From positions 1,116,001 through 1,180,000 of the forward strand of contig WUQR01000139.1 of the NCBI GenBank assembly GCA_009889515.1: a stretch of DNA of 64,000 bases, given 5' to 3'. The DNA is from Nitrososphaerota archaeon (GTDB lineage: Archaea; Thermoproteota; Nitrososphaeria_A; Caldarchaeales; Calditenuaceae). This document shows positions 5,387 to 9,574 of this stretch, one piece after another (the stretch's first letter is position 1; every line of letters begins with the position of its first letter). The position numbers and the translations under genes were made by a program. The notes below the pieces were generated by a model. That model saw nothing but the letters and a program-made list of their open reading frames with translations. It was not told the DNA's origin and made no database searches.

Positions 5387-6337
5387 TTAACCTGTGCCGT
5401 ATCTCTCCCGGAGCTCGCTGCTAGGTAGGAAGAGCCTCTCAAGCTCGGCGTATCTGCTGATGCCTGCGAATTCGTGGAGATTCTCGAAGGGGGTACCTTC
5501 GAGCTCGGACTCGAGCCGCCAGTGGGCCTGCTCCATCTCCTCAGCCAGCGCCTTCAAATACCTCCATACGGAGACGAGCTCGGCCTGTAGTCCACCCATG
5601 CTCACCAAGAGGAGCTTATATCCCATATCAGCTACATCCTTGAAACGCAACCTCAGCCTGCTCTTAGACCACCTGAAGGATGAGGAGTAGTTGAAGAGGA
5701 GTGGGAGGCCCGGATGCTCGGCCAAGACCCTCTCCGCAAATATTTTTGCCGCCTCGTCGTCGGGTGATCTGAACTCTGCCCAGACCACGTCGGCCCCAGC
5801 ATCGGCATACGCAACTCCCCTCCGGACAGCCTCCTCAACCGTCCCACCCTCAGACCCCAAGACATCGGTCCTAGCTATTATGACTAAGTCCCTATCGACC
5901 TCGTCCCGCGCCCTCAGAATCGACTTCATCTTCAACAACGCCTCATCAAACGGGAGGACTAGTTTGCCGGCTAGGTGCCCACACCTCTTGGGAAACCTCT
6001 GATCCTCCACGTGTATCCCGGCAACCCCAATCCTCGCGAACTCCTCAACCGTCCTTGTGGCAGTTACAGCGTTTCCATAGGCGTCGTCAGCATCGGAGAC
6101 CACTGGCTTCCTGACGGCCCTAGTAATCATTCCGGCGAAGTTCACCATGTCTGTGAGGTTGAGGAACCCTATATCCGGTTTGAGAAGATATCCTATCGAG
6201 CATGTGTAGCCGCTTACATAGATGCAGCTGAGCCCCGCGAGCTCAGCCAGCCTTGCCTGAACAGGCGTGTATACTCCCGCGGTGAAGACTAGGCCATCAC
6301 CCCTTAGCAGACTCCTCAAAACCTTGCCAGACGACAT
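5387..6337 (-). CDS. Isocitrate lyase / PEP mutase family enzyme (methylisocitrate lyase-like)
   Basis: A 316-residue TIM-barrel lyase. It has the Mg-binding PVVSDADDAYGN segment (about residues 78-89), VEDQ, and the catalytic loop KRCGH, the form seen in methylisocitrate lyases (isocitrate lyase proper usually has KKCGH). The substrate is therefore a 2-methylisocitrate- or isocitrate-like acid, or a related PEP-mutase-class compound; sequence alone does not settle it. Aconitase is at 24 kb and could supply the substrate, but no citrate or methylcitrate synthase is present. The gene is divergent from the MazG-like gene. Confidence 0.85.
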   Translation of the reverse strand: MSSGKVLRSLLRGDGLVFTAGVYTPVQARLAELAGLSCIYVSGYTCSIGYLLKPDIGFLNLTDMVNFAGMITRAVRKPVVSDADDAYGNAVTATRTVEEFARIGVAGIHVEDQRFPKRCGHLAGKLVLPFDEALLKMKSILRARDEVDRDLVIIARTDVLGSEGGTVEEAVRRGVAYADAGADVVWAEFRSPDDEAAKIFAERVLAEHPGLPLLFNYSSSFRWSKSRLRLRFKDVADMGYKLLLVSMGGLQAELVSVWRYLKALAEEMEQAHWRLESELEGTPFENLHEFAGISRYAELERLFLPSSELRERYGTG

Positions 6338-6440
6338 ACAAACCTATAGGGCGGCTGGGATTGAAAAGGTTTACATCATCACCGGCAGATGGAAGGATTT
6401 TTATGCTGTATCTGTTGTTGAGACTGCTGGAGGGAGGGTC

Positions 6441-6728
6441 TTGGAGCTTAGTGAATGCCAGAGGTTGATGGCGAGGATATACGGCGAGCGCGACGCTGCG
6501 CGGGGTGCTGAGAGGACGCTACTCTGGATGCTCTCGGAGGCTGGAGAGGTGGCTGACGCCTACATTAAAGACTCTAAAAACATTGGGCCAGAGTTCGCCG
6601 ACCTCTTGGCATGGATGCTCAGCACATGTAATGTTTTGGGGATTGACATTCAGAAGGAGTTCATCTCAAGATATGGTGCAGGCTGTCCGCGCTGTGGGCA
6701 AATACCGTGCAGATGTCCAGCTCGCTAG
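6441..6728 (+). CDS. MazG-like NTP pyrophosphohydrolase-fold protein
   Basis: A 95-residue all-alpha protein of the MazG/dUTPase-like superfamily. LSECQRLMARIYGERDAARG is followed by LLWMLSEAGEVADAY, carrying the metal-binding ExxE pattern, and then EFADLLAWMLSTCNVLGID with the second acidic motif. The tail GCPRCGQIPCRC looks like a small metal site seen in some archaeal members. I start at the TTG because GGAGGGAGG lies a few bases upstream; extending to the first ATG would run into the divergent lyase gene. A house-cleaning nucleotide hydrolase is likely, with unknown substrate. Confidence 0.75.
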   Translation: MELSECQRLMARIYGERDAARGAERTLLWMLSEAGEVADAYIKDSKNIGPEFADLLAWMLSTCNVLGIDIQKEFISRYGAGCPRCGQIPCRCPAR

Positions 6729-6931: not shown

Positions 6932-7927
6932 TCAGCCAAGGACCTCCACCTCCCCTCCTATACCCGACACCAGTACGTCGAACCCTCCGGCCCGAATCTC
7001 CTCCGCGACTATCTCAGCATCCTCTGGGAGGGTGTTTACGTAGACGGTTGGACCTGTCTGCATTGAGAAGTAGGCCGCTACTCCTTTCCCTCTCAGCCTC
7101 TTGACAATCTCTATCACCATTAGGGCTTCTGGTGTCATGAGTATCGTCCCTTGGGCGCCGGTCATTGTTACAGCGTGGAGCTCGAGGGAGTCCTTCTCTA
7201 CAAGCTCGCCGAATCGCTTGAAGTCGCCGTCCTTAATAGCCTTCTCAAGCTCTATGCACCTCCTATTGGCCGACTCAACCCTAGCCCAGAGGAATGGTGA
7301 GGTCTCAGCCTCTCTATGAGCCGTCTCGGTTGAGACATCAAGCCAGAGAGGGACAATAACATATCTGATATCTAGGTCGGAGGCGTCGCCTATTCTTATG
7401 GCATAGCTATCCTCGTCGCCTGTTCCTGCCAGCCACTTAGCGTACGCACCCACAACCGAGCGGCATGCAGAGCCTGCCAGCAGCCTAGCGATCCGCGATA
7501 TGAGTCTTAAATCCCATCCATACTTTTTGTCGAGTGAGGCGGCCTTGTAGGCGGCCGCGGCTATTGCGGCGCCTGCGGATGAGGAGAAGCCCATGCCCTT
7601 GGCCCTTATCCTCGGGTGATTCTCAGTCTCCACTACGCACTTATCATCGATACCCGCCAGCGCCCTCACCCTATCTATCACAGCTATAACACGCTCCCGA
7701 GGCCGCCCCACAAGCTCTACACCACCAGCCAAAACCTTATCACTCTCAAACGAGCCGAAAGTAACACGCGCAGTTGTGTATGCGACATCTGTGTTCACCG
7801 ATATGCTGTCATGATACGGAATCCTCAGGCTCCAGTCCCTCAGGCCGTGATACTTCACGAGGGCCTGCATGGTATAGGCCCTAGCGACCGCGCCCCTAGC
7901 CACGAATCCATGATAGTCAACCCCCAC
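6932..7927 (-). CDS. Diphosphomevalonate decarboxylase-family GHMP protein with altered active site
   Basis: A 331-residue GHMP-fold protein whose best family match by motif is mevalonate diphosphate decarboxylase. It has ALVKYHGLRDWSLRIPYHDS (Lys25 at the place of the conserved Lys), the ATP loop GMGFSSSAGAA and SACRSVVGAYAKW. In known decarboxylases a catalytic Asp sits in DAGPN near the C-terminus; here the segment reads YFSMQTGPTVYV, with Gln (about residue 290) instead. Reaction is therefore uncertain: a decarboxylase with changed chemistry, or a kinase-only enzyme such as the mevalonate-3-kinases of Thermoplasmatales. Probably part of isoprenoid metabolism. Confidence 0.75.
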   Translation of the reverse strand: MGVDYHGFVARGAVARAYTMQALVKYHGLRDWSLRIPYHDSISVNTDVAYTTARVTFGSFESDKVLAGGVELVGRPRERVIAVIDRVRALAGIDDKCVVETENHPRIRAKGMGFSSSAGAAIAAAAYKAASLDKKYGWDLRLISRIARLLAGSACRSVVGAYAKWLAGTGDEDSYAIRIGDASDLDIRYVIVPLWLDVSTETAHREAETSPFLWARVESANRRCIELEKAIKDGDFKRFGELVEKDSLELHAVTMTGAQGTILMTPEALMVIEIVKRLRGKGVAAYFSMQTGPTVYVNTLPEDAEIVAEEIRAGGFDVLVSGIGGEVEVLG

Positions 7928-8007: not shown

Positions 8008-8400
8008 TTGGGGAGAGTGAGAGATCCGGGAAGGAAGTATTTCTACGAGGGCCTCACCGACTCTGAGAGGGCGGCTTTCGAGGCGGGAATCGCGCTGGCT
8101 ACAGCTTATCACTACCTCTTAGGCCTCCCACTACCCAGAAGACCTGCAGCGATTAAGAGGCTGCTGGCCCAATTGAGCGAGGGCCTCGCCGCCCAGCCAT
8201 TCAGGGAGAGGGTAGAGTTGAGGGTTAAGGGCCTGCGTATTGGGAAGACAGCCTACAGGTACGGTCGCATAGACATTAGGAACCTCGAGGTGAGCGTTGT
8301 GGTCAGGTATGGTCAGAGCAGGGTCTGGGGGAGGCTCAGCTGGATTGATGAGCTGAACTACCCCTTAATGAGGATTGAAAAACTCGTCCGCAAACAGTAG
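8008..8400 (+). CDS. mptD: Archaeal dihydroneopterin aldolase (MptD)
   Basis: A 130-residue protein of the former DUF381 family, the archaeal 7,8-dihydroneopterin aldolase that makes 6-hydroxymethyl-dihydropterin for tetrahydromethanopterin-type or folate-type C1 carriers. Recognised by SERAAFEAGIALATAYHYLLGLPL at the N-terminus, AAQPFRERVELRV, and the end VVVRYGQSRVWGRLSWIDELNYPLM. The start is TTG at 8008; a GTG at 8017 is equally possible. It is a single gene on the + strand. Confidence 0.82.
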   Translation: MGRVRDPGRKYFYEGLTDSERAAFEAGIALATAYHYLLGLPLPRRPAAIKRLLAQLSEGLAAQPFRERVELRVKGLRIGKTAYRYGRIDIRNLEVSVVVRYGQSRVWGRLSWIDELNYPLMRIEKLVRKQ

Positions 8401-8647: not shown

Positions 8648-9574
8648 CTACCTGTTCGCCCTGACCATCTGGAGAAAACAGTATCTGGGAAACTCTCTCA
8701 AAATCTTCTTGTAATGAGCCTCCACAGGCATCACAGCCACAAGACTATCTATCTCCCTCAGCGTCTCCTCCAAGATCTCCAGCACATATCCCTGGAATCC
8801 ACGAAGAGCCCTCCACACATTTATCAGCTCGCGGAGACGCCCACTCTTTAACGCAAAGTATCCCTGCCTTATCAGCTCCTCAATCCTCCCTAGGTTTCGC
8901 ACCAGCCTCACAACACCTCTACCCGCGAGCATCTCACCGTAATCATCGCCTAGCTGGTAGACAATACCGACGCACCTCCCATAGTTCTTAGCGAGCATGC
9001 GGACATGTTCGGGAGCCCCCGCAAGTATGGCTGCGGACTCGGCGGCGGCCGCGAAGAGAGAAGCGGTCTTGTTCTCGATGATCCGGAGGTAGAGCAGCTT
9101 AGAGGGCGGGGTCGTCGAGAGGATCTCCTCCAGCACTCCGAGCGAGGCCCTATCCCACGCCTCGAGAAAGATCCGAGCTATCTCTATCCCCTTCTCGAGA
9201 ACCGTCCTGAATGCGAGGTTGATAATTCTGTGCCCCTCCACTACGGCCCTGCTGATCCCCACCTGCCTCCATAGCGCGGGCCGCCCCCGCCTAAGATCGT
9301 CCCAGTCAATAATGTCGTCGTGAACTAGGCTTGCTGCATGCGCCAGCTCTAGGGCAAACGCCACATCGAGGGCGGACTCCCGGTCCTTCCCAGCCAGAGC
9401 TTCAAAAACCAGTAAGAGGAAGACAGGCCGCAGCCTCTTCCCACCGTAAACGGCCCTCTCAAAAATCTGCCTATCAGGTCTCTGGCTTAGCCGCCTCTCA
9501 ATCCAAGACTCAAGCTCTCTCCTCCGCGCGTCAAGATGCTCGACGATCTCTACGCTGTAAGACAGAACACCCAT
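8648..9574 (-). CDS. Isoprenyl diphosphate synthase homologue (trans-prenyltransferase)
   Basis: A 308-residue all-alpha protein of the polyprenyl synthetase family, expected to make geranylgeranyl or longer diphosphates for archaeal lipids. GGKRLRPVFLLL binds IPP, and VHDDIIDWDDLRRGRP is an intact first Asp-rich motif. IENKTASLF holds the conserved KT. Two spots differ from typical enzymes: AVVEGHRIINLAF has GH where GD is usual, and the second Asp-rich region is LGDDYGEM, with Glu in place of the third Asp. Activity is likely but product length, or even catalysis, is uncertain. Confidence 0.8.
   Translation of the reverse strand: MGVLSYSVEIVEHLDARRRELESWIERRLSQRPDRQIFERAVYGGKRLRPVFLLLVFEALAGKDRESALDVAFALELAHAASLVHDDIIDWDDLRRGRPALWRQVGISRAVVEGHRIINLAFRTVLEKGIEIARIFLEAWDRASLGVLEEILSTTPPSKLLYLRIIENKTASLFAAAAESAAILAGAPEHVRMLAKNYGRCVGIVYQLGDDYGEMLAGRGVVRLVRNLGRIEELIRQGYFALKSGRLRELINVWRALRGFQGYVLEILEETLREIDSLVAVMPVEAHYKKILREFPRYCFLQMVRANR

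Follow-up and report, generated by a model that had tools for sequence, protein, structure and literature searches.

A predicted archaeal phosphomevalonate decarboxylase with glutamine in place of the catalytic aspartate

The residues lining the phosphate site of mevalonate-pathway decarboxylases have been compared previously (eLife 2013, PMC3857490), and read Tyr, Lys, Ile/Asn/X, Ser, Ser, Ser in diphosphomevalonate decarboxylase (MDD or DMD) and Tyr, Leu, Arg, Ala, Ser, Thr in the mevalonate 5-phosphate decarboxylase (MPD) of Roseiflexus. The role of the catalytic Asp in such enzymes, whether as base, orienting group, carbocation stabiliser or helper of phosphate loss, is debated on the basis of mutants alone. 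In MDD it may orient the 3-OH and stabilise the carbocation, and the D283A variant of the S. epidermidis enzyme is inactive (PMC7414129). The mutant results of Motoyama 2017 (JBC) are taken here as cited in PMC9254496 and PMC7414129; as given in the former, Sulfolobales SsoDMD is turned into a 3-kinase by D281T or D281V and is still active as a decarboxylase with D281N. Bisphosphomevalonate decarboxylase (MBD) strictly needs the Asp, its D309N and D309T variants being dead (PMC9254496), and a basic residue of the beta9-alpha8 loop aids phosphotransfer in both MDD and mevalonate-3-kinase (M3K) (PMC9254496, PMC7414129). Mevalonate 3,5-bisphosphate is stable, so that its decarboxylation must be catalysed (PMC5177888).

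A 2024 survey (PMC11052028) reports phosphomevalonate decarboxylase (PMD) in Nitrososphaeria and Nitrososphaeria_A, relying on conserved residues, the Lys of DMD and the His of PMD; its main text makes no mention of a missing Asp, and its PMDs are presumably the Gln-type proteins described below, on which no study was found in the full text of openly licensed papers. What appears to be new is a clade-wide, single-origin change from Asp to Gln in an enzyme that seems to provide the only route. With Gln fixed in the probable sole route to membrane lipids, this natural clade opens the function of the Asp to direct testing, and also calls for caution, as surveys naming these proteins PMD depend on an enzyme without the textbook catalytic residue.

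The gene, its family and its likely substrate

The window, a stretch of 64,000 nucleotides from a hot-spring archaeon, contains on its minus strand an open reading frame (6932-7927) of 331 aa with a GTG start and no break in frame, in the translation of which the motifs AAYFSMQTGPTVYVNT, ALVKYHG, AKGMGFSSSAGAA and SACRSVVGAYAKW can be read. In four congeners a stop codon interrupts this longer frame between residues 1 and 9, so that the GTG at residue 9, 24 bases downstream of 7927, is the likelier start and the protein most likely comprises 323 aa (Table 1). Residues are numbered from that start (Lys17, Arg148, Glu241, Gln282); counted from 7927 they include Lys25, Arg156 and Gln290. The gene is under purifying selection (dN/dS 0.04-0.08, window versus congeners).

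Table 1. Features of the locus, in positions of the window
Feature	Position	Strand	Remark
PEP-mutase/isocitrate-lyase family gene	5387-6337	minus	conserved across genus
MazG-like gene	6267-6728	plus	conserved across genus
Gln-type phosphomevalonate decarboxylase homologue	6932-7903	minus	323 aa, GTG at 7903 the probable start
Gln282 codon (CAG), site of the catalytic Asp	7058-7060	minus	Q in 56/56 clade members
Glu241 codon	7181-7183	minus	E in 56/56 clade members; Ser/Asn in near PMDs
beta9-alpha8 loop, residues 185-192	7328-7351	minus	basic residue aiding phosphotransfer in MDD missing
Arg148, substrate carboxylate arginine (Arg144 of S. epidermidis MDD)	7460-7462	minus	invariant column
ATP/phosphate-binding loop GMGFSSSAGAA, residues 103-113	7565-7597	minus	clade-invariant Lys102 just before it
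Lys17 of KYHG motif	7853-7855	minus	invariant column, all 60 aligned homologues
Upstream in-frame extension of longer ORF, probably untranslated	7904-7927	minus	stop codons there in four congeners
Archaeal dihydroneopterin aldolase gene	8008-8400	plus	conserved across genus
Polyprenyl synthetase gene (isoprenoid chain elongation)	8648-9574	minus	PF00348 1.3e-39; neighbourhood kept in genus

The nearby polyprenyl synthetase gene is taken as supportive context only. The PEP-mutase/isocitrate-lyase and MazG-like genes overlap at their predicted 5' ends. Immediately upstream of the Gln-type gene, and often overlapping it, many Nitrososphaerota loci have a DUF371 (PF04027) gene (e.g., L030:5519-5980, L020:5534-5983 and L017:2821-3288), whose product is a possible functional partner.

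The sequence-only reading had placed the protein in the decarboxylase family, and the database matches and the predicted fold bear this out. Pfam gave MVD-like_N (PF22700, 5.8e-38) and MDD_C (7.6e-12), with a weak match to PF21433, while none of four NCBIfam models reached its curated cut-off: the best match was NF040704, phosphomevalonate decarboxylase (1.9e-73, 247 bits, cut-off 475, which the Asp-bearing Bathyarchaeia-like PMD with 290 bits also misses), followed by TIGR01240, diphosphomevalonate decarboxylase (1.7e-47, 161.9 bits, cut-off 171.35), NF040847, bisphosphomevalonate decarboxylase (3.6e-28, 98.8 bits, cut-off 560) and NF040848, mevalonate-3-kinase (6.4e-11, 41.8 bits, cut-off 440). 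A chance family resemblance is ruled out by the TIGR01240 and NF040704 E-values, by PDB homologues down to 1e-38 and by the dN/dS values. The AlphaFold2 model (pLDDT 97.5) best matches Anaerolinea thermophila PMD (6n0y/6n0x, TM 0.92-0.94), and the GHMP/MVD fold seen in it and in PF22700 is accompanied by the ATP loop and by the invariant Lys17 and Arg148, in agreement with the earlier observation that Lys, Arg and loop are kept.

The six phosphate-site residues are Tyr18, Leu21, Arg27, Ala143, Ser145 and Thr192, a set identical to that of the proven Roseiflexus enzyme, and the His that marks PMD (H194 of AthPMD, mutated in 6n0z) is present as His196, invariant in the clade. The site is therefore of the kind expected for PMD (no Lys21; Arg27, Ala/Ser143, Ser145, Thr192, His196), which points to mevalonate 5-phosphate, and not mevalonate or the diphosphate, as the likely substrate. 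Leu21 instead of Lys21, Gln282 instead of Asp and the TIGR01240 score set the protein apart from DMD/MDD.

The earlier pointer to a mevalonate-3-kinase as in Thermoplasmatales fares worse. The shared fold, the absence of the Asp and the weak matches to NF040848 and PF21433 speak for it, but the PMD model scores far better, the phosphate-site residues of PMD are retained, the protein falls on the PMD side of the tree and the genome has its own mevalonate 5-kinase over cut-off. Moreover, Lys17, Arg27 and His196 are kept; in the M3K-like control L167, by contrast, Phe stands in place of both Lys17 and His196, and the Asp is absent. Model scores and this residue comparison rule out a mevalonate-3-kinase as the likely identity, and we regard that reading as highly improbable.

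L167 (532-1491, minus strand; NF040848 134 bits; without Asp and Lys17) comes from a Thermoproteota genome (G426) that also encodes an MBD-like protein, L155 (NF040847 170 bits, Asp kept), and has no AcnX, the aconitase-X-type dehydratase, over cut-off. This genome possibly holds a Thermoplasma-type split pathway, for which the phylum is not mentioned in the main text of the 2024 survey (PMC11052028).

The change from aspartate to glutamine

In all 56 full-length relatives Gln stands where the D-x-G-[PA] loop would carry its catalytic Asp, the loop reading SMQTGP[ST]V, rarely SFQ or SLQ; characterised decarboxylases have Asp there without exception. The same column holds Asp in 23/23 haloarchaeal PMD, 4/4 Bathyarchaeia-like PMD, 7/7 Sulfolobales DMD and one Chloroflexota homologue ('Bathyarchaeia-like' and 'Sulfolobales' being labels assigned in this analysis to genomes of other families in the phylum), and the loops align column for column: STDTGASVYVNT in haloarchaeal PMD, SIDTGPSVFINT in Bathyarchaeia-like PMD, FDAGPN in Sulfolobales DMD and IDAGPN in Chloroflexota. 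No shifted catalytic Asp was found within the loop in the alignment to Asp-bearing PMDs. The missing Asp and the Gln at about residue 290, as first read from the sequence, are thus real. A sequencing error is ruled out by the 56 sequences and by the codon, CAG being present in the window as well as in five congeners; nor has the motif decayed or arisen by chance, given the invariance of Gln and the low dN/dS.

Carriers of the Gln form comprise Calditenuaceae and Caldarchaeaceae (the window's order), other Nitrososphaerota including Gagatemarchaeum, and MAGs labelled Methanocellales or Methanosarcinales; the Nitrososphaerota carriers outside the window's order we take, from their names, to be non-ammonia-oxidising. 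A maximum-likelihood tree computed without the Gln282 column places the Gln clade on the PMD side of the family (support 97/93) and needs a single change from Asp to Gln, which by this tree happened once, in the common ancestor of the clade. The long-branch, Asp-bearing L155 adjoins the clade, its placement being unsure.

Positions that set the Gln clade apart, almost without exception, from both PMD groups are Met12, Ala14, Asn37, Gly111, Phe204, Arg215, Glu241, Met281 and Gln282, among which Glu241 is the only fully conserved gain of a carboxylate. It lies near the C-terminal end of helix 228-247 in the AlphaFold2 model, in the context DS/DTLELH, as opposed to DTLNLH in Bathyarchaeia-like PMD and DSLSLT in haloarchaea; outside the clade the residue is S/A in haloarchaeal PMD, N in Bathyarchaeia-like PMD and S in DMD. 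A second PMD-like gene in two halophile-group genomes (L168:452-1420, minus strand, and L169; 394/389 bits) encodes Glu241 together with the catalytic Asp. Glu241 alone is therefore not diagnostic, and the idea of an exclusive swap between position 282 and residue 241 is weakened. One of these two genomes, G129, also has AcnX.

The beta9-alpha8 loop is without Lys or Arg in 8 of 9 members of the window's family (f1), versus 0 of 25 sequences of haloarchaeal PMD, Bathyarchaeia-like PMD and DMD. This loss would suit an MBD-like, ATP-independent decarboxylase of mevalonate 3,5-bisphosphate supplied by a separate kinase, but the ATP loop and Lys102 are invariant, MBD depends strictly on the Asp that is Gln282 here (D309N/T dead, PMC9254496) and the NF040847 score is weak, which together make such an enzyme scarcely credible. 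Lys102, we infer, could replace the missing basic residue.

Pathway context across genomes

The advice to look for AcnX was followed, and none over cut-off was found in the window's own genome or in the 20 genomes of families f1 and f2. Of the 44 genomes in the class, 11/12 of f1, 6/8 of f2 and 0/24 of f3 and f4 have the Gln form, whereas AcnX over cut-off and close AMPD (the AcnX-linked decarboxylase, at least 260 bits) are each found in 0/20 genomes of f1 and f2 versus 22/24 of f3 and f4. Only distant UbiD relatives (185 bits at most) are present in f1 and f2, in five genomes. As this pattern follows families, it reflects only one or two evolutionary events. Isopentenyl phosphate kinase (IPK) and mevalonate kinase are over cut-off in 42 and 40 of the 44 genomes, respectively, the window's own included.

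The genome search found no hidden AcnX route in the own genome and no second decarboxylase paralogue, the two other GHMP matches there being the mevalonate kinase just mentioned (L062) and a 300-aa GHMP kinase (L061). With mevalonate kinase and IPK present and AcnX and AMPD absent in the window's relatives, this protein alone is therefore left for the step between, as in the PMD pathway, methanogen MAGs being the exception.

Among these MAGs, five of seven (G044, G045, G046, G048 and G122) carry AcnX, AMPD and the Gln form, and in two (G077 and G134) AcnX over cut-off and AMPD are both absent. The Gln form is also found in 22 Nitrososphaerota genomes outside the class; 20 of these give no AMPD match at 1e-20, and 10 contain an AcnX homologue. 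These two groups rule out that the Gln form and AcnX strictly exclude each other in all genomes; the overlap is not peculiar to the Gln form, since Asp-type Bathyarchaeia-like genomes hold AcnX too. AcnX large-subunit homologues without AMPD were seen in Nitrososphaerota genomes G049, G054, G055, G056, G059, G060, G063, G068 and G069, where AcnX probably has a role other than the dehydration of mevalonate 5-phosphate.

In methanogen MAGs with intact AcnX and AMPD the Gln form would be redundant. This coexistence, together with the lack of a directly adjoining mevalonate gene (the polyprenyl synthetase excepted), might indicate that the protein acts on another beta-hydroxy acid or its phosphate, outside isoprenoid synthesis. 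However, all substrate residues of PMD are kept, and in that case genomes of the class with mevalonate kinase and IPK would have no means of converting mevalonate 5-phosphate to isopentenyl phosphate; we consider this very unlikely.

Proposed mechanism and comparison with known systems

Since the usual archaeal route of AcnX and AMPD is missing, full PMD activity is the likeliest role of the protein, rather than a new reaction. We consider it likely that the gene encodes an ATP-dependent PMD of a haloarchaea-type mevalonate pathway, with Gln282 doing the job of the Asp, and that the product is probably a decarboxylase making a building block of the host's membrane lipids. In this pathway mevalonate kinase would convert mevalonate to mevalonate 5-phosphate, the Gln-type enzyme with ATP would phosphorylate it at position 3, with subsequent loss of phosphate and CO2 yielding isopentenyl phosphate, and IPK would produce isopentenyl diphosphate. 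The Asp would have been replaced by Gln in the clade ancestor alongside the conserved changes Met12, Ala14, Asn37, Gly111, Glu241 and Met281; the amide of Gln282 may orient the 3-OH or 3-phosphate and the carbocation in the manner of Asp, behaving like the Asn of SsoDMD D281N, and Glu241 may restore the negative charge lost.

Several points weigh against reading the protein as a PMD: the variants D281T/V, D309N/T and D283A lose decarboxylation; f1 members also have no basic residue in the beta9-alpha8 loop to aid phosphotransfer; the Gln form would be redundant in several methanogen MAGs; the distribution within the class stands for one or two events only; and Glu241 also accompanies the Asp in a haloarchaeal paralogue. 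An enzyme that is a mevalonate-5-phosphate 3-kinase only, yielding mevalonate 3,5-bisphosphate for a separate, non-homologous decarboxylase and thus a fifth arrangement of the mevalonate pathway, would agree with the 3-kinase activity of SsoDMD D281T/V (as given in PMC9254496), with the lack of the Asp in M3Ks and with the retained ATP loop. It is nevertheless unlikely: since the own genome has no other MVD-family protein, a further, unrecognised decarboxylase is required, as mevalonate 3,5-bisphosphate is not decarboxylated spontaneously (PMC5177888); SsoDMD D281N stayed active (as given in PMC9254496); and the residue missing in f1 is precisely one of phosphotransfer. The earlier suggestion of a kinase or a new activity thus survives in its first part as this 3-kinase, while full PMD activity is favoured over a new reaction.

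As a tentative general proposal, either the carboxylate regarded as indispensable in the MVD superfamily was lost once, clade-wide, with its role passing to Gln282 and Glu241 or else to a phosphate of the substrate itself, or the enzyme halts at mevalonate 3,5-bisphosphate and an unrecognised decarboxylase completes a fifth mevalonate pathway. The Gln form is real and conserved, and it is probably a functional variant PMD, though one without the Asp that defines the enzyme.

Among known systems, haloarchaeal PMD (NF040704, Haloferax type) is a tree neighbour with about 34-41% identity, IPK as partner and KYHG, Arg27, His196, Thr192, TMTG and the ATP-loop serines in common; unlike it, the window protein has Gln282 for Asp, Glu241 for Ser and an ATP-loop segment two residues longer with Lys102, and the loop Lys is missing in f1. 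Bathyarchaeia-like PMDs (L135-L137, L139), on a short branch, are the nearest Asp-bearing relatives and share the GKGLGFS-type loop, Leu21, Ala143 and TGPSVFINT, but have Asp and Asn241 where the window has Gln282 and Glu241, and their genomes contain AcnX. The mevalonate 5-phosphate decarboxylases of Anaerolinea and Roseiflexus (6n0x; eLife 2013) provide the closest solved fold and the same phosphate-site residues, but with Asp280. Sulfolobales SsoDMD (5gmd) has the fold, Lys, Arg and ATP loop in common and differs by Lys21, Asp281 and Met at the position of His196. Finally, Thermoplasma mevalonate-3-kinase shares the fold and the absence of the Asp, whereas the M3K-like control L167 is also without Lys17 and His196, and the window protein scores much more weakly with the M3K model.
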